DNA of 64,000 nucleotides from an uncultured Gemmata sp. (GTDB taxonomy: Bacteria > Planctomycetota > Planctomycetia > Gemmatales > Gemmataceae): contig CALDUT010000019.1 in the NCBI GenBank assembly GCA_937924775.1, forward strand, positions 1 to 64,000. Reading direction: 5' to 3'. A program made the translations under genes and the position numbers. The notes below the pieces were generated by a model. That model saw only the letters and a list, made by a program, of their open reading frames with translations. It ran no database searches and was not told the origin of the DNA. This document shows, piece by piece, positions 41,111 to 51,451 of the stretch (position 1 is its first letter; each line of letters opens with the position of its first letter).

Positions 41111-42637
41111 ATGGCTATTGAATTACGCTGCCCGGATTGCCGGGCGAAACTTCGCCTGAAAGCCGCCCCCCAACCGGGCACCGACATCGAATGCCCCAAG
41201 TGCGAAGCGGTTTTCACAGCTCCCGATCTCGATGACGACGATGCGGACACCCCGCCGCCTAAGAAGAAAAAAATCCCCGAAGTTGCCTCGAAAGCCAAAG
41301 CCGCTGACCAAAAAACGGACAGCCCGAAAGCCCCGCTTCCCCGCGGGCCACGCAAACGCCGCGCCAAAAAGAAAGAAACTAGCAAGTTGTCGTTGATTCT
41401 GATGATCGGGGCCGCGGTGGTGATGGTTGGCGTCATGAGCGGCACCCTCATCTGGTTTTTTACGCGAACCTCCAAAGCCGTCGAAATGTTTTACTATGTG
41501 CCCGAAGATGCCCAATTCGCCATCGGCATCAACATCGGGCATGCCCAAAAGTACCCCAAATTCTATGAACAGGTGAAATCCTCGCAAGAAGGCACCGACT
41601 TCAAAATCGCCGGGCAAACCATCGCCAAAGCCGCCGGTACCGACTTCGAGGCCCTGATCGATTACATGGTCCGAGCCGATTCCTTCAGCCAAGGGTCGGC
41701 GATCGTCTTTCGCACCAAGGAAGAATTCGATAGCGAAGCCCTCGCCAAAATCCCCAATGCGACCAAGAAAACCGCGTCAGGTGTCACGTATTATGTGACT
41801 CCCAACATTCTGCCGGGCGGTCAGAGCGGGATCGTGTTTGCACCCACCAATCGGCTGATTGTCGTTTGCCGCAGGGACATGGAAAATAAGCCGGCGTTCC
41901 AGAAAATGCTCACCGGGCACGCCGATAATCGCGAAAAAACGCTCGGGATTCGCATGGGCCCGCTCGGAAAACGCATCACTCGCGGCACTTTCTGGCAGAT
42001 GACGCTCTACGACAACAACGTTCGCCCCCCCAGCCCACCGCAAACGCAACCGACGACTCCCGGCGGTGCTGGTGGCGCCCCCCAGCAACCCGGCGACGAT
42101 ACCGAAGAACAATTCAAACGGGTACAAGCCGAAGCCCTCAACGGGGCCCAAGGCATGGGCGTGAAAGCCAGCCTCGGCAGCCGCGAAGTCCGCTTCGAGA
42201 TTGTTGTGTGGCACAAAGATAGTGACAAAGCTTCCGAATATGCCAAAAAGATGCAAGACAGTGAACTCGGCAAAGGGGATGAAGGCGAACCGCCGCGATG
42301 GTTCAAGAACAAAACGCAAGGACTGGGCGACCGCAAAGTGGCCGCGCAGTTACTTTCCAACATCGGTTTCGGTTCCTCTGGAGAACTCTTCTACGCGAAA
42401 AGTGCCGTTGAAACGGTCGATATGCAACAACAAGCGGGGACAATCATTCTGAAAGTCACTGGGCAATCGAAAGACGCTACCGGCGGTGGCCCCGGTGTTA
42501 TGCCGGGGACGCGTCGCCGCCGCGGGATCCACAACCGATCGATCCGGCGCACCGGCCGATGCCCCTGGGCCGCTCCGCTGGCAACCGCTGCCCCGTGCCA
42601 GCTGAAACCCACTGGTGTCGCGGGGGAAACCCTGTGA
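41111..42637 (+). CDS. zinc-ribbon (MJ0042-type) single-pass membrane protein
   Basis: The 508-residue product starts with a zinc ribbon, LRCPDCRAKLRLKA then IECPKCEAVFTAP (two CPxC pairs), continues with a Lys/Pro-rich cytoplasmic linker, one membrane helix (LSLILMIGAAVVMVGVMSGT LIWFF region, ~100-122) and an outer domain of about 350 residues of unknown fold (VPEDAQFAIGINIGHAQK). Such N-terminal MJ0042 ribbons are frequent in Gemmataceae proteins. The last ~35 residues are Arg-rich and unlike the rest; a frameshift near 42497 would give a Pro-rich end instead. It overlaps the start of queC. Confidence 0.65.
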   Translation: MAIELRCPDCRAKLRLKAAPQPGTDIECPKCEAVFTAPDLDDDDADTPPPKKKKIPEVASKAKAADQKTDSPKAPLPRGPRKRRAKKKETSKLSLILMIGAAVVMVGVMSGTLIWFFTRTSKAVEMFYYVPEDAQFAIGINIGHAQKYPKFYEQVKSSQEGTDFKIAGQTIAKAAGTDFEALIDYMVRADSFSQGSAIVFRTKEEFDSEALAKIPNATKKTASGVTYYVTPNILPGGQSGIVFAPTNRLIVVCRRDMENKPAFQKMLTGHADNREKTLGIRMGPLGKRITRGTFWQMTLYDNNVRPPSPPQTQPTTPGGAGGAPQQPGDDTEEQFKRVQAEALNGAQGMGVKASLGSREVRFEIVVWHKDSDKASEYAKKMQDSELGKGDEGEPPRWFKNKTQGLGDRKVAAQLLSNIGFGSSGELFYAKSAVETVDMQQQAGTIILKVTGQSKDATGGGPGVMPGTRRRRGIHNRSIRRTGRCPWAAPLATAAPCQLKPTGVAGETL

Positions 42638-43335
42638 ACGGCACCAGCTGGCCCCCCCGCGACGCCAACAGCCCGTTGGCCGTTCTCGTCAGCGGTGGCC
42701 TGGATAGTGCGATTTTGCTGGCCGAAGCGGTTCGTGCCTACCCGCGAGTGTATCCGGTGTATGTTCGCACCGGACTCTACTGGGAAACGGTAGAACGCGA
42801 ATATCTTGAGCGTTTTCTGCATTCGATTCGGTGCCCCGCCTTGCAACCCCTAGTCGTTCTCGATCAACCGATTGGCGACGTTTACGGCACGCACTGGAGC
42901 ATTTCCGGCAAAGGCGTCCCAACGGCCCAGACCCCCGACGACGCGGTCTTCCTCCCCGGCCGCAACGTGCTGCTCTTGGCCAAACCCCTGCTGTGGTGTC
43001 ATCTCAACGGCGTACCGGAAATCGCAACTGCCCCCTTGGGAACCAACCCCTTCCCCGATGCGACCCCCGCGTTTTACGATAACTTCGCCGCGATCGTCAG
43101 CTCGGCCATCACCGGCCAGGTCCGCGTGCTACGCCCCTATGCCGCGCTTCACAAAGTCGATGTGTTGCGACGTGGCCACGGCTTGCGGTTAGAACATACG
43201 TTCTCGTGTATCCGGCCGCGCCATGGCCAGCATTGCGGAACTTGCAATAAATGTGCGGAACGCCAGGCCGGATTCCGAGAAGCCGAAATAACCGACCCCA
43301 CCGAATACGCGGACTTGGGACACGCTAACGGTTAG
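42634..43335 (+). CDS. queC: 7-cyano-7-deazaguanine synthase QueC-like
   Basis: The start is GTG at 42634, which overlaps the TGA of the upstream gene (GTGA) and follows a GGGGGAA ribosome site. The 233-residue protein has the ATP-pyrophosphatase P-loop LVSGGLDS (18-25) and the zinc site C192, C201, C204, C207 (HCGTCNKCAERQAGF). QueC converts 7-carboxy-7-deazaguanine to preQ0 with ATP and ammonia. Length and Cys spacing fit the family. With queD at 148 nt downstream it forms part of the queuosine/7-deazaguanine route; queE and queF are not in the window. Confidence 0.88.
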   Translation: MNGTSWPPRDANSPLAVLVSGGLDSAILLAEAVRAYPRVYPVYVRTGLYWETVEREYLERFLHSIRCPALQPLVVLDQPIGDVYGTHWSISGKGVPTAQTPDDAVFLPGRNVLLLAKPLLWCHLNGVPEIATAPLGTNPFPDATPAFYDNFAAIVSSAITGQVRVLRPYAALHKVDVLRRGHGLRLEHTFSCIRPRHGQHCGTCNKCAERQAGFREAEITDPTEYADLGHANG

Positions 43336-43482
43336 CAGCCCCCGGGGAGAAACGATGGTCCCCGTCCGCAGGAGAAAAGACCCACACTCGAGGGACAAAC
43401 GGCGTTTCTTGAAGGCTCCGGAAACCGTTTCGGCCGACGCAGCAGATGGAGAATAGCGCTCACCAGCCCTTGCGGAGAAGCG

Positions 43483-43944
43483 ATGTTTCGCGTTACCAAA
43501 GAAATTCACTTCTGCTACGGTCACCGGCTGCTGAACTACGCCGGCAAATGCCGCCACCTGCATGGCCACAACGGCCGGGCTGTGATCACGCTGGAAGCGG
43601 AAGCTCTTGATACTCTTGGTATGGTCGTGGATTTTTCGGAAATCAAACGGATTGTCGGACGCTGGATCGACGAACAACTCGATCACCGCATGCTTCTGCA
43701 CGAAGCCGATCCGATTATCCCCGAGCTGATCCGTCAGGGCGAACCCTTCGTCACGCTCAACGCCAACCCGACGGCGGAAAACATCGCCCGACTCATTTTC
43801 GAACGGACCACGGCCCACGGTCTACCGGTCGTCGAAGTGACGCTGTGGGAAACGGAAACATCGTTCGCCACCTATCGCCCCCAAAACCCTGAAACCGGCC
43901 CGCCGTTACGGATGCGTGAAGTCGCGGCTCGCCCCACGATCTAA
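43483..43944 (+). CDS. queD: 6-carboxy-tetrahydropterin synthase QueD-like
   Basis: A 153-residue member of the PTPS/QueD family. Zinc ligands H14 (CYGHRL), H27 and H29 (CRHLHGHN) and catalytic C23 are present, followed by DFSEIKRIVGRWIDEQLDHR (the Asp/His of the family) and the substrate-binding Glu in VTLWETETSFA. QueD makes 6-carboxy-tetrahydropterin from dihydroneopterin triphosphate, the first step after GTP cyclohydrolase. Adjacent to queC on the same strand. Confidence 0.9.
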   Translation: MFRVTKEIHFCYGHRLLNYAGKCRHLHGHNGRAVITLEAEALDTLGMVVDFSEIKRIVGRWIDEQLDHRMLLHEADPIIPELIRQGEPFVTLNANPTAENIARLIFERTTAHGLPVVEVTLWETETSFATYRPQNPETGPPLRMREVAARPTI

Positions 43945-44088: not shown

Positions 44089-47000
44089 ATGATGGCCCCG
44101 CTGCCGAACCCCAGCTCGTTTGGCAACCGGCCCGAACTTCCGCGGGTCCGCCTCGACGTCCGTACCGATACCGGACGGACCAGCCACTTCGACCTCGACC
44201 GCGACGAATTCCTCATCGGCAGTGCCGCGGGCTGCGACTTGCGTCTGCCCGCATCAGCACTGCCCGCTGTCGCTCTTCGACTCACCCGACAGCCCGAGGG
44301 TTGGCGCCTCCGCCGCGTGGCCCCAGCCATTCCAGTGGTCATCAACGATACAAGCCTGACCACCAATAGCCCTTACTTGCTACATCCGGGCGATACCATC
44401 CGGATCGCCGGCTACACGATCACGGTACAATTCCTGGCCCCAGCTGCTGCATCCTATCTGGCCCCACAATTCGTGCCACTCGACGACGTTCCGCTGGCCG
44501 AACCGGCTCACGAACCCCCCCCCGCCCCAACCTCTTCAACCTCTCTGGATGAAGAATACCGACGGCTCGAACAACGCCGGCAGAAACTCGAAGCCGAAGA
44601 GGCTGACCGCCGCGCCGCCTGGGAAACCCAAAACGCCGACCTGATTCGCCGCCAACGCGAACTCGATCGCCTGACTGAAGAACTCCAGACCGATAAAGCC
44701 CAATGGCACGAACGGCGGGCCGCGATCGAACAAGAACTCGCCCAGCAACACGCCGCTGCCGCGGAACGGCTCCGCCGCGAATTGGAAGAACTCCGGCAAC
44801 AATGCCTCGCCGAATGCCAGCGGCAACGGGACGAATTGCAAAAGGAACGGGAACAATTCCAGGCCGAACGCGCAGCCTTCGAACCCCAGCGACAACAGCT
44901 CCGCGAGGAGCAAAACCGACTGGCCGCGCAAGTCCAAGAACTCACGCGGCAACGGGAAACCTTCGCCGCCGATCGCGACATCTTTGAGAAAATGCGGGCT
45001 TCGTTCGCTACGCAAACGCAGGCCGACGAAGAGCGGCTCAAAGTGTGGGAATCGGAACTTTTGGCCCGCCAGGCTGAGCTGACCCGCCGAGAGGAGCTGC
45101 TCCGCACCGCACGCGAAGAATTCGACCAAGAACGCTGCCGCTTTCACAGCGATGTTATCGCTCTGGAGCGTCGCCTGATGGCCGTCGAACAGGCAGAACG
45201 GACCATCACCACCCGTACCCAGGAACTCGATAACCGATTGGAACAGCTGCAACGCGAAGCCCGTGAATGGGAAGAAACCGTCTGGTTGGCCACCGCGGAA
45301 CAAGAACGGCTCCGCGCCGAAGCCGAACGGCTCGACCGACAGAAGGCGGAACTCGATGCACAGTCGGCCCTGCTGGCCGAGCGCGCAGCGCAAATCGAAG
45401 CGCAGCAAGCGGTTGTGGCAGTCATGCGGGCAAAACTGGAACGCACCCGTCACGACATCGAACGCGAAGCCTGGCAATTGGCCGCCGCCCGTCTCCGGGA
45501 AGAAGAAGCCCAAGCCGAACTCCGCCGACGCATCCAAGAGGCCGAAGAACTCCGGGCCACGCTCAACGCAGCTCAGGCCGATACCGAACAGGAACGCCGC
45601 CGGCTCGACGAGCGCGATTCCCTTTTAGCCGCGGGGCTCGCCGAAATTCAGGCCCAACGCGAAGCTCTGGCCGCGGAAGCCAAACGCTTGCAAGAACGCG
45701 AGGCGGAACTCGACCTGCGCACTGCGGAGCTCGCCGAGCAAACCGGCATGCTCAAAGGCCGACTCACCCAAGCCCTCGACCTCCAGTCCCGCCTGGAAGC
45801 CGATCGCGTCGCCATCCGCGAGCGTGAAGCGGCCTTAGCGCAATCGGAAGAAGCCCGTCTCGCTTTCCAAGAACAATTACGCCGCCGTTCCGAAGAATTG
45901 GCCCTGCGGGCCAAAGAACTGGAGGAAACCGCCCGGCAACTGGCTGCCGAGCGGGCGGCCATCGCCGAAGCCCAGGCAGAATTCGTGGCCACCCGCCAAG
46001 CCGCCGAAGAGGAACTCGCGGCCCGTCGCCAGCAACTCGATTCTGAAGCCCAACGCTGGCAGCAACACGCCGCCACCTTCGCCCAGAAAGAAGAAGCCCT
46101 CGCACGGCAAGTGGCCCGGCTCAAAGACGTCGGCGCGGCGGTGGCAGCGGAGCGCAAAAGCCTCGCGGAAGCCCGCGCCGCTTGTGAGGCCGAACGCTCC
46201 CAGTTGGAGGAATTCCGCCAGAGGATGGCCGCGGAATGGGAAACTCTGCAGGCTCAAGCCCCCGAACTGGAGGAACAAACCCGCCTGGCCCTCGAACGGT
46301 TGGCCAACGCCCGCGAAATGCTCCGCGGCCACTTAAGCGAATTGAACGAATTCGCCCGGCTGAGCCGCACAGACCTTGAAACGGCCCGCACGCAACTTCA
46401 GGCCGAAGCCGAACGCATTCGCCAGCAACACGAACTGCTCGAACGGGCCAAAGATGAACACCGCGTCGCCGTCAGTGCCTTCCGCCAACAAATCATCGAG
46501 TGGCAAGGCACCATCGCCGAAATCCGGCGGCAATTGACGGCCAGCGAAACGCGTCTGGAAGCCAAAGCCGTGGCGGCCACCGAAGCCGCCACCGCGGCCG
46601 CTGATGCAACCCGCCAATTGGCGGAAGAAACCGAACGTCTGCGGCGGGAACGCGAAGAGCTGACAGCGCGCCGTACCGAAATGGAACGGCATCTGGCCGA
46701 GATGCGCGAATGGTACCGCAAGAAACTCCGCGAATTGGCCCGCAGCAATGTCCAAGATGCCAGCCCGGAGCTGAAGATTCACAACCCCGGGCCGGCGACG
46801 GCAGCGTCTTCGCCCTCCGCCGGTCCGCTCGCCCCCTTGGCGGTCGATGAACTCGAACCCGGGGATCGCCAATTGGGCGAACTCCTCCAATCGGCTGGGT
46901 TGGTTGATCCCGATACGCTCACCGCCCTGTGGGCCGAAGCGCACCGGCAACGGCGCACCCTGCGACAAGTACTCCTTGCCAGCGGAGCGATCACACTGTA

Positions 47001-47856
47001 CCAACTGGCCCTGATCGAAGCCGGGAATCTCGACGCCCTCGTTCTCGGCCGTTTCCGCGTCATCGACCGGCTGCGGGTCTCGGCCAAAGAAGCGGTTTAT
47101 CGGGTATTCGATCCGCAACGGGCTGGTTCGGGGCACAGTGGCGTCTTCCTTCTGCGGCATCTGGGCGAGGAGGAAATGCAGGATGCCATCCATCCCGACG
47201 AATTCCGGCAGCGGTTCTCGGCCGCGCGCGACGCGGCCCACCCCCACCTGGCCACGGTCGTCGAAGTACTCGACATCAACGGTCGGCCTGCGGTTGTGAT
47301 AGAATGGCTCAATGGGTTAGTGAGCGCCGACTGGCCACCGTTTGCCGCCCATCCGGGGTGTTGGGTGCGTTTGGCCACCATGGCCGCTGGGGCTATCGAA
47401 GCCGCTCACCGGGTGGGGCTCGTTCACGGTCGGTTAACGTCCGATTCCTTCCTGCTGACCCCCGAGGGAGTGCTGAAGGTCCTCGGTTTTGGGGAACCCC
47501 TGTGGCTGGGCGTTGGTCCGGTGCCGGCCGAAGTATCCTTCGCGACCGACCTGCGGGCGTTTGGTCAGGTCCTTTTTGGCTGGTCGCAGCTCTTGGGCAA
47601 GAAACGCAGTACGCGGTCGAAAGCGTTTCCCGAAACGCTCTGGAACGTCATCCGGCGGTTGGAGGCCGACGCCGAACCGCCGATGGCCGACACCGTCGCC
47701 GCGGCCCAACCCTATGCTTCCGCGGCCGATCTGCTCGCCGACCTGCAGCGGATCGCCCGAGAAACACCCTTCAGCGACGATGCGTGGGAGCGACTGCTCA
47801 AATATGTCGCCGACCATGCCCCCGATACACACATTCCCGCACGAAAAGCAGGCTGA
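44089..47856 (+). CDS. degenerate FHA - long coiled coil - GspE-N-like - pseudokinase protein
   Basis: A single 1255-residue ORF. Residues ~15-125 resemble an FHA domain (FLIGSAAGCDLRLPASAL ... VINDTSLTTNSPYLLHPGD), but the usual GR and S-x-x-H phosphothreonine-binding residues are replaced. Residues ~150-905 are an almost unbroken coiled coil of Glu/Arg/Ala/Gln heptads. Residues ~928-985 (LGELLQSAGLVDPDTL, ITLYQLALIEAGNLDALVLG) match the small domain that precedes the kinase in many planctomycete Ser/Thr kinases. The final ~240 residues follow a kinase fold with every catalytic motif altered: HRD region VHGRLTSDSFLL, DFG region VLGFGEP, and FLLRHL where the VAIK lysine is expected. It is probably a cytoplasmic scaffold; no membrane helix is seen. 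Confidence 0.75.
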   Translation: MMAPLPNPSSFGNRPELPRVRLDVRTDTGRTSHFDLDRDEFLIGSAAGCDLRLPASALPAVALRLTRQPEGWRLRRVAPAIPVVINDTSLTTNSPYLLHPGDTIRIAGYTITVQFLAPAAASYLAPQFVPLDDVPLAEPAHEPPPAPTSSTSLDEEYRRLEQRRQKLEAEEADRRAAWETQNADLIRRQRELDRLTEELQTDKAQWHERRAAIEQELAQQHAAAAERLRRELEELRQQCLAECQRQRDELQKEREQFQAERAAFEPQRQQLREEQNRLAAQVQELTRQRETFAADRDIFEKMRASFATQTQADEERLKVWESELLARQAELTRREELLRTAREEFDQERCRFHSDVIALERRLMAVEQAERTITTRTQELDNRLEQLQREAREWEETVWLATAEQERLRAEAERLDRQKAELDAQSALLAERAAQIEAQQAVVAVMRAKLERTRHDIEREAWQLAAARLREEEAQAELRRRIQEAEELRATLNAAQADTEQERRRLDERDSLLAAGLAEIQAQREALAAEAKRLQEREAELDLRTAELAEQTGMLKGRLTQALDLQSRLEADRVAIREREAALAQSEEARLAFQEQLRRRSEELALRAKELEETARQLAAERAAIAEAQAEFVATRQAAEEELAARRQQLDSEAQRWQQHAATFAQKEEALARQVARLKDVGAAVAAERKSLAEARAACEAERSQLEEFRQRMAAEWETLQAQAPELEEQTRLALERLANAREMLRGHLSELNEFARLSRTDLETARTQLQAEAERIRQQHELLERAKDEHRVAVSAFRQQIIEWQGTIAEIRRQLTASETRLEAKAVAATEAATAAADATRQLAEETERLRREREELTARRTEMERHLAEMREWYRKKLRELARSNVQDASPELKIHNPGPATAASSPSAGPLAPLAVDELEPGDRQLGELLQSAGLVDPDTLTALWAEAHRQRRTLRQVLLASGAITLYQLALIEAGNLDALVLGRFRVIDRLRVSAKEAVYRVFDPQRAGSGHSGVFLLRHLGEEEMQDAIHPDEFRQRFSAARDAAHPHLATVVEVLDINGRPAVVIEWLNGLVSADWPPFAAHPGCWVRLATMAAGAIEAAHRVGLVHGRLTSDSFLLTPEGVLKVLGFGEPLWLGVGPVPAEVSFATDLRAFGQVLFGWSQLLGKKRSTRSKAFPETLWNVIRRLEADAEPPMADTVAAAQPYASAADLLADLQRIARETPFSDDAWERLLKYVADHAPDTHIPARKAG

Positions 47857-47975: not shown

Positions 47976-48770
47976 TCAGTAATCGAAGGCGTTTTCCCCC
48001 AATCCCACGTTCAATTTCACATCGCTGAAACTGTACGCTTCGATCAAGTCTCCACTTTGGGACCCGGTTTTGGGTTGGTCGTAAGCTTCGTAACGCAGCG
48101 GCAGTTTGGTTTCTTTGTCGATGTAGAGCAGCATTTGGTAGGCCGTGCGGAAGGCATGCGGGCGGCGGAGGAGAACCTCATAGCGAACAACATTGCGGCC
48201 CGCGAATTGATAATCGCCGCGGTAAACTTCGATCGGATTGTTGAGCGTTTTCTCCCGGGCTACGGCAGCGGCCACACGGTCGACAAGGGCCGTCATGGTC
48301 CATTGGGTCACTGGGTGGCGATTGGCGGCGAGGAATTTGGCATCGTTGAGTTCCAGGGTTTGGAAACCTTTCGCCCCCGCGACCCCGGCAGGGCGGTAAC
48401 GCATCCGATCGGCCTTGCGGGTGGCACTGTAAGCCACTTCCATACCGGCGACCGATTCCGGCCGGGCGAAGCGCACATACACCCCGGCCGGATGCGTCCG
48501 AACTTTCATCTCCGCAACCTGCTCGGCTGAAATTTTGCCATTAACTAGTTCTTGCCGGGTGAACGTGCAAGTGTAATCGCGAACTTTGCCCAACGCCGTT
48601 CGCGATTCACTCAACACCGTGACAAACGATTCCCGGGGGTTTTTCTCCCCATCGCCGGAACCACTGTCGGCTTTGGCCACGGCGGGCCCTTGACGTGGCT
48701 GCGCCACGACGGCCGCTCCGCCCACGATCCAACCCGCGCAAGCGACAATCGCCCACATTTTCATGCGCAT
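47976..48770 (-). CDS. DUF1571 family secreted protein
   Basis: The 264-residue protein has a signal peptide (MRMKMWAIVACAGWIVGGAA) and the DUF1571 pattern: VRDYTCTFTRQELVNGKI, MKVRTHPAGVYVRFARP, MRYRPAGVAGAKGFQTLEL, MLLYIDKETKLPLRYEAYD. The fold is related to LolA/LolB-type lipoprotein carriers by prediction in the family, with unknown ligand. A GGGGGAG ribosome site precedes ATG 48770. Monocistronic, next to a divergent-looking outer-membrane gene on the same strand. Confidence 0.82.
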   Translation of the reverse strand: MRMKMWAIVACAGWIVGGAAVVAQPRQGPAVAKADSGSGDGEKNPRESFVTVLSESRTALGKVRDYTCTFTRQELVNGKISAEQVAEMKVRTHPAGVYVRFARPESVAGMEVAYSATRKADRMRYRPAGVAGAKGFQTLELNDAKFLAANRHPVTQWTMTALVDRVAAAVAREKTLNNPIEVYRGDYQFAGRNVVRYEVLLRRPHAFRTAYQMLLYIDKETKLPLRYEAYDQPKTGSQSGDLIEAYSFSDVKLNVGLGENAFDY

Positions 48771-50291: not shown

Positions 50292-50584
50292 AACCGGTCT
50301 CCCTACCAGGGTTGACCATCGGCAAGATTGGGAAATAGTTGTTGGCTCACGAAGAGAGGGGTGATGGCGTAGGCGATTCGCTCACCCGCCGCTTTCACCC
50401 GGATAACCTATTCCCGTTTATCTTGCCTCCTTCCCTCGGCCCGACATCCTGCCGGGTATCATTTCCATCGGCGGATGAGGCGAGCCGCGTGAAGACTTCA
50501 CCAAGAAATCACAGCCACAAGTGGCTCGCAGCCCCTATAACCGGACAACATCCAGACGCGAGAGGAATTCGAGGAGATTGGCAC

Positions 50585-51451
50585 ATGAAACGACACAACA
50601 GCGTAATGATCCTGGCCGCAGTGATCAGCGGCGGACTGTTAGGAAGTTTTGCCATCGGCTGGTGGTCCGGAGGGCACGAAACGATCGCCGAAGCGACCGC
50701 GGCCCGCCTGCCCGACGATGTACCAGCTTTCTTCCGAAACGGTGGCAAACACCTGGCCCACTTTGCGGTTGATCCCGACCGATGGAAAAATCGCGACACG
50801 CCCTTTCTCCGCGCTGAAGAAGAAGGTAACCACTACCTCGACATGGAAGACCTCGACGGTTGCCAGCTCCCTGCAACCCACCGCTTCGACGCCATGAAAA
50901 TGATCTACACCGAGTTGAAGAAGGAACCCAACAAGGTTGGCTTGTTGCCCTATGCCATCATGGAGAACTACGAAAAATTAGTGGTGGCTTTCGCGGATTA
51001 TCGCAAAAACCCCACGAATAGTTCCATTCCGATGAAGTGTTTGGTTCACGGCGGGGTCTTGTGTCACTACACCGGAGATGCCGCGATGCCCCTGCACACC
51101 ACGCGCGATTACGACGGTCGCCGGCAACCCGATGGCAGCGTTCAACAAAAAGGCATCCACGCGAAGATCGACGGCTTCCCCGAGAAGAACCAGATCACTG
51201 CGGAGGAAGTCTGCCGCGGATTGGAGGCCAAGAAAATTGACGATGTGTGGGCCTATGTGAACAAATTCATTGCTGAATCGCACACGCATGTAGCCCAATG
51301 CTATGAATTGGACGCCGCCGGGGCTTTCGATAAGCCCACCGCGGAAAGCCGGGCCTTCATTCTCGCCCGTGTCCGCGCGGGGGCCCAATTCACCCTCGAT
51401 TTGTGGTACAACGCCTGGCTACAAAGTGCCAGGCTGCGTGGAGCCTGGTGA
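50585..51451 (+). CDS. S1/P1-nuclease/phospholipase C-like zinc enzyme
   Basis: ATG at 50585 follows CGAGGAG by ten nucleotides; the longer upstream frame is not protein-like. The 288-residue product has a membrane-anchoring or signal helix (MILAAVISGGLLGSFAIGWW). A set of candidate Zn ligands fits the S1/P1 nuclease and phospholipase C superfamily: W27/H31 (WWSGGHETIA), H83-x2-D86 (GNHYLDMED), H155, H161-x3-D165 and H171 (HGGVLCHYTGDAAMPLHTT), and H192 (KGIHAKID). It is probably exported and cleaves phosphodiesters; the substrate is unknown. It ends 27 nt from the convergent MGH1 gene. Confidence 0.75.
   Translation: MKRHNSVMILAAVISGGLLGSFAIGWWSGGHETIAEATAARLPDDVPAFFRNGGKHLAHFAVDPDRWKNRDTPFLRAEEEGNHYLDMEDLDGCQLPATHRFDAMKMIYTELKKEPNKVGLLPYAIMENYEKLVVAFADYRKNPTNSSIPMKCLVHGGVLCHYTGDAAMPLHTTRDYDGRRQPDGSVQQKGIHAKIDGFPEKNQITAEEVCRGLEAKKIDDVWAYVNKFIAESHTHVAQCYELDAAGAFDKPTAESRAFILARVRAGAQFTLDLWYNAWLQSARLRGAW

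Follow-up and report, generated by a model that had tools for sequence, protein, structure and literature searches.

An FHA-fold head, a long coiled-coil rod and a degenerate kinase fold in one Gemmata protein: a candidate tether or scaffold

We analysed a window of 64,000 nucleotides from an uncultured Gemmata sp. (contig CALDUT010000019.1, positions 1 to 64,000 of the forward strand). One gene, at 44089..47856 on the plus strand, encodes a protein of 1255 residues. Its ATG start is supported by orthologs, as the reading frame begins at a 'MMAPLPNP' N-terminus that is conserved in other Gemmata-group orthologs. From the N- to the C-terminus, the protein is made up of an FHA fold (residues 18-118), a proline-rich linker, a coiled coil (about 152-888), a short linker, a pre-kinase helical module (925-985), a kinase fold (986-1235) and a short tail. 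The first-pass annotation had read the gene as an FHA-like domain joined to a long coil, a pre-kinase domain and a kinase fold, and had named structure prediction of both ends as a check. AlphaFold2 for both ends, Pfam for the head and periodicity for the coil all agree with this architecture; family alignments gave predicted FHA and kinase folds, each with a pLDDT of about 91. Hydropathy showed no transmembrane segment in the 1255 residues. They hold no Walker A motif either, so the protein does not qualify as an SMC-type rod ATPase. SMC-like NCBIfam matches scored far below their cut-offs and lay in the coil, and we attribute them to coil composition. No phage families were matched.

Directly upstream, on the same strand, are queC and queD of the queuosine pathway (42559-43944); when other orthologous regions were examined, this pair was not found beside the gene. 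A DUF1571 protein (47976-48770, minus strand) is convergent with the gene. This and other downstream neighbours are shared only with G012, the nearest relative, the contig of which stops upstream. The reading frame at 50339-51451 has a weak S1/P1 nuclease-like match that falls short of the Pfam cut-off (E 2.4e-5). When orthologous regions were compared, no gene neighbour was conserved across genera. Large clusters of neighbours were rejected as a context signal, as they were mostly reverse-strand reading frames overlapping the gene itself.

The head (residues 18-118, 44140..44442, plus strand) is predicted to form an FHA beta-sandwich with a pLDDT of 91.1. The best solved structures for this model in Foldseek were FHA domains, with Ki67 first (E 1.7e-7). 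In Pfam, the best match was Yop-YscD_cpl both when the full protein was searched (E 8.5e-7, compared with 0.028 for FHA) and when the domain was searched alone (E 7.3e-8, compared with 6.4e-4 for FHA); this match is a reflection of the degenerate FHA fold. A phosphothreonine-binding FHA domain carries the Arg of GR, the Ser and His of SxxH, and an Asn. In the head, S45, P59 and A62 replace the Arg and Ser that bind phosphate and the conserved His, and N86 is retained. Over 57 FHA domains of the family, the phosphate-binding Arg and Ser were found in none, the His in three and the Asn in 54. The three that keep the His all belong to an outlying order represented by three genomes. Judging from these residues, phospho-reading by the head is unlikely.

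The coiled coil (residues 152-888, 44542..46752, plus strand) is a rod of about 710-735 residues. Its large hydrophobic residues show a heptad-like periodicity above that of all 2000 shuffles. If the coil is continuous, the rod would span about 106 nm over residues 176-888 at 0.1485 nm per residue. The last 160 coil residues are its best conserved portion. This stretch (residues 725-885, 46261..46743, plus strand) terminates in the EMREWYRKKLRELA motif, and its dN/dS is below the whole-rod value in nearly all pairs. Among the 59 full-length members, a single exact length was found for segment 355-450 in 53, for 450-600 in 49 and for 725-876 in 46, and the length over 355-876 clusters at 507-532. 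Indels in the rod are 7, 11, 4 and 18 residues long and preserve the coil register. Steps of 7 or 11 residues, taken once or twice, account for 55 of 65 length differences, compared with 25% of the integers up to 20; these differences are not independent events, because the members are related. The rod thus appears to be under register control. In two Gemmataceae genera (L088 6457-8706, of 750 residues, and L086 7040-10507), both ends are present and the coil is short or disrupted; therefore, not every lineage requires a full rod. A coil of some 106 nm with a conserved register and a conserved end bearing a WYRKKLR motif could also belong to a cytoskeletal element, in which rods assemble laterally or end-to-end in the manner of intermediate filaments in the Gemmatales. 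We regard this as quite unlikely because the C-terminal globular end is better conserved than the rod, which fits docking better than a pure polymer.

The pre-kinase module (residues 925-985, 46861..47043, plus strand) shows the strongest conservation in the protein, with about 70-81% identity to the consensus; it was delimited by AlphaFold2, conservation and dN/dS. It is followed by the pseudokinase domain (residues 986-1235, 47044..47793, plus strand). Residues 909-1255 were modelled with a pLDDT of 90.7 and a pTM of 0.87. VIA-align matched this model to PknA with a Z score of 19.9 over 220 residues (rmsd 3.3), in rows that span model residues 75-319 and thus barely cover the pre-kinase part. 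StkP was reached from sequence, with E 6.5e-7 from a single sequence (phmmer) and 2e-21 from a profile (hmmsearch). The tail therefore has a protein kinase-like (Hanks-type) bilobal fold. Pfam Pkinase did not match the protein, and the 58 matches to Pkinase in this genome do not include the gene.

The first-pass annotation had stated that the VAIK, HRD and DFG motifs are all replaced, and the family alignment of 64 tails bears this out, with VAIK refined to a lysine-to-arginine change. At the beta3 site, GVFLLRHL (47140..47163, plus strand), R1023 occupies the lysine position, which is Arg in 63 of the 64 tails. We assign the beta3 lysine to R1023 on the basis of the outlying order, whose sequences VAAR-ALKP and MALR-ILDP correspond to VALK-VLPR in active relatives, although the phmmer alignment puts the lysine two residues before R1023. 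At the catalytic-loop site, HGRLTSDSF (47425..47451, plus strand, equivalent to HRDxxxxN), the Asp position, 1115, is never Asp (Arg in 41, His in 14, others in nine) and the Arg of HRD is Gly in 61. The DFG site has become GFGEPLWL (47485..47508, plus strand); the DFG Asp survives in four tails and the family signature that took its place, GEPxWL, is nearly invariant. The glycine loop and the catalytic-loop Asn are gone, and Gemmatales members have throughout lost the activation segment that would lie between GEPxWL and helix F. The alpha-C Glu of StkP aligns with R1042, a position that is Arg in 49 of the 64. Homologues with intact catalytic motifs, which would have made this copy a damaged one, were sought among the family members and none was found. 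With Arg, Arg and Gly at the VAIK Lys, HRD Asp and DFG Asp and without a glycine loop, the domain does not qualify as an active Ser/Thr kinase. These residues make catalysis unlikely; R1023 leaves a small opening for nucleotide binding. SidJ and SelO retain recognisable ATP- and metal-binding residues (PMC12599244). The conserved beta3 arginine and GEPxWL could be taken to mean that the degenerate fold has a different activity, such as the AMPylation of SelO or the glutamylation of SidJ. This is very improbable, as SidJ and SelO keep such binding residues, whereas the Gemmata protein has lost its glycine loop, the Asp of HRD, the Asn of the catalytic loop, the Asp of DFG and the activation segment.

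The protein ends in the tetrapeptide RKAG-COOH (47842..47853, plus strand). An [RK]x[SAT][AG]-COOH end is shared by 58 of 67 members, compared with five of 502 other long reading frames of the same regions, and none of 32 other long reading frames within the window has it. The residues directly before this motif are variable and were modelled with low confidence. The motif could be a protease-recognition or docking tail.

Across 249 genomes of the class, profile searches found a single-copy ortholog in 54 of 61 Gemmataceae and in five of seven sister-family genomes; these counts depend on draft genomes. It was also found in three genomes of another order, which are all the genomes that represent that order. 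Carriers include Gemmata sp. IIL30, Zavarzinella formosa and Limnoglobus roseus. Apart from that order, sampled genomes from the remaining families of the class yielded no copy; therefore, the gene is not a general planctomycete factor. No further carriers turned up among 294 genomes sampled from the phylum. With the C-terminal 327 residues, each same-genus genome searched gave one strong ortholog (70-88% identical), and identities in other Gemmataceae genera were mostly 44-59%. Some Gemmataceae genomes that are 90-100% complete have no recognisable ortholog. A deeper profile run on G032, G204, G155, G213 and others gave only ordinary kinase-level scores, except for G023, which holds a cut-off end fragment at a contig edge. 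The absences from G032, G204, G155, G213, G210, G172 and G250 may be losses or assembly gaps. One match in G047 (E 5e-31) proved to be an ordinary active kinase and was excluded.

In ten pairs of orthologs, dN/dS never exceeded 0.36 in the head, rod, pre-kinase module or pseudokinase, and most values were far lower. The closest pairs weigh most because dS nears saturation in more distant ones. These ratios indicate that purifying selection acts on every domain. The listed orthologs have no internal stops. It is scarcely credible, then, that this is a functionless kinase gene in decay: all catalytic motifs are lost, but the identical losses occur order-wide, under purifying selection and without internal stops, and this conservation contradicts decay. 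The survey of Gemmataceae that the first-pass annotation had called for thus found a single ortholog with shared losses, and its view that both ends were inactivated while fold and architecture were kept describes, by the tallies of 64 tails and 57 FHA domains, a conserved state of the order.

Based on these results, we propose a model for the protein. We consider it fairly probable that it acts without catalysis, as a tether or scaffold that docks at both ends. A structural or scaffolding function had been suggested at the outset, and it is the best inference from dead motifs on conserved folds, selection and a constant rod length. Because catalysis, phospho-reading, membrane insertion and ATPase activity are all unlikely, and because the ends, rod length and C-terminal peptide are under selection, we infer a dimeric tether or scaffold. 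Its presence as a single copy in most Gemmata-type bacteria likewise argues for a physical tether or scaffold rather than a broken kinase. In our model, the long coil would oligomerise, as a dimer or higher, into a rod some 100 nm long. The FHA-fold head at one end and the pre-kinase and pseudokinase tail at the other would serve as protein-docking modules, each binding a partner, and the purpose of the rod would be to hold a fixed spacing between them. The [RK]x[SAT][AG] peptide may add a further docking or turnover signal.

A link to planctomycete cell organisation would be a guess. A more specific version of such a link, which we find doubtful, is that the protein is a lineage-specific molecular ruler in the Gemmatales, whose rod of about 100 nm sets the distance between two cellular structures. 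These could be the invaginated membrane and the nucleoid or envelope, and both docking heads would derive from inactivated phospho-signalling domains.

Pseudokinases often regulate active kinases. As the genome encodes many active kinases (58 Pkinase matches), and as the pre-kinase module and kinase-fold ancestry are common to planctomycete kinases, we also weighed a regulatory pseudokinase that docks onto, or allosterically activates, one or more of the active Ser/Thr kinases, with the coil clustering them. We judge this unlikely, since no kinase is a conserved neighbour, the FHA fold lacks its pThr contacts, and a rod of constant length and a pseudo-FHA head would be superfluous for such a role.

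Known systems offer partial parallels to a tether or scaffold. EssB/YukC acts as a dimerising scaffold, and in its pseudokinase all motifs are degraded along with the glycine loop and activation loop (PMC12599244). The Gemmata protein is similarly degraded in VAIK, HRD, DFG, the glycine loop and the activation loop. However, EssB is a transmembrane protein of the Firmicutes T7SSb, whereas the Gemmata protein has no transmembrane segment or conserved neighbours, and combines its pseudokinase with an FHA-fold head and a long rod. PrgH and YscD have FHA folds in which the pThr motif is poorly conserved or missing, and these folds are used structurally (PMC3635987). The YscD/PrgH/MxiG cytoplasmic domain (Yop-YscD_cpl, PF16697) resembles the head in its degenerate FHA fold, but is part of a ring protein of type III secretion that has neither coil nor kinase. 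These precedents for both halves in T7SSb and T3SS, together with the top Pfam match of the head, would suit a part of a secretion-like machine. This is highly improbable: no neighbours are conserved across genera, EssB and YscD are membrane proteins and this one is not, and the Pfam match mirrors the degenerate fold. By analogy, the Gemmata protein may function like EssB/YukC and YscD/PrgH, but it is a member of neither system.

MviN (Rv3910, of the ActPs3 family) and FhaA also pair a bacterial pseudokinase with an FHA domain, and the structures of the MviN pseudokinase and FhaA FHA domain were among our fold matches. In that pair, the FHA domain of a second protein reads the phosphorylated pseudokinase tail, whereas in Gemmata both folds are on one polypeptide and the FHA fold lacks pThr contacts. 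Planctomycete Ser/Thr kinases align with the pre-kinase module and kinase fold, but they keep HRDxKPxN, and in L048 and L085 the kinase is near the N-terminus rather than C-terminal to a rod.

If our reading is right, this is a family of bacterial pseudokinases that has apparently not been described before; its phospho-reader and its phospho-writer would both have been made structural as the ends of one rod. We found no literature on a planctomycete pseudokinase of this kind in open-access sources. For the known bacterial pseudokinase families (ActPs1-3, GLW, CP1, DYD and DLHK), a review gives family motifs and associated domains; the sections that we drew on contain no FHA-coil architecture, and the main text mentions neither Planctomycetes nor coiled coils (PMC12599244). 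The protein is also a conserved, single-copy structural candidate for the cell biology of Gemmata, where the organisation of internal membranes has little explanation so far. In a quick tree, a branch with SH-aLRT 99 separated all of its pseudokinases from active kinases, though the tree carries a long-branch warning. In the three-genome order, the orthologs (L047 7620-11837, L049 3738-7601 and L084 8588-12253) still carry the His of the FHA motif as well as an APE-like activation segment; their HRD is already HHN, HHA or HLA and a GEPxWL-type signature is present. By these residues the version in this related order appears less degenerate, an intermediate stage of inactivation that would show the conversion partway.
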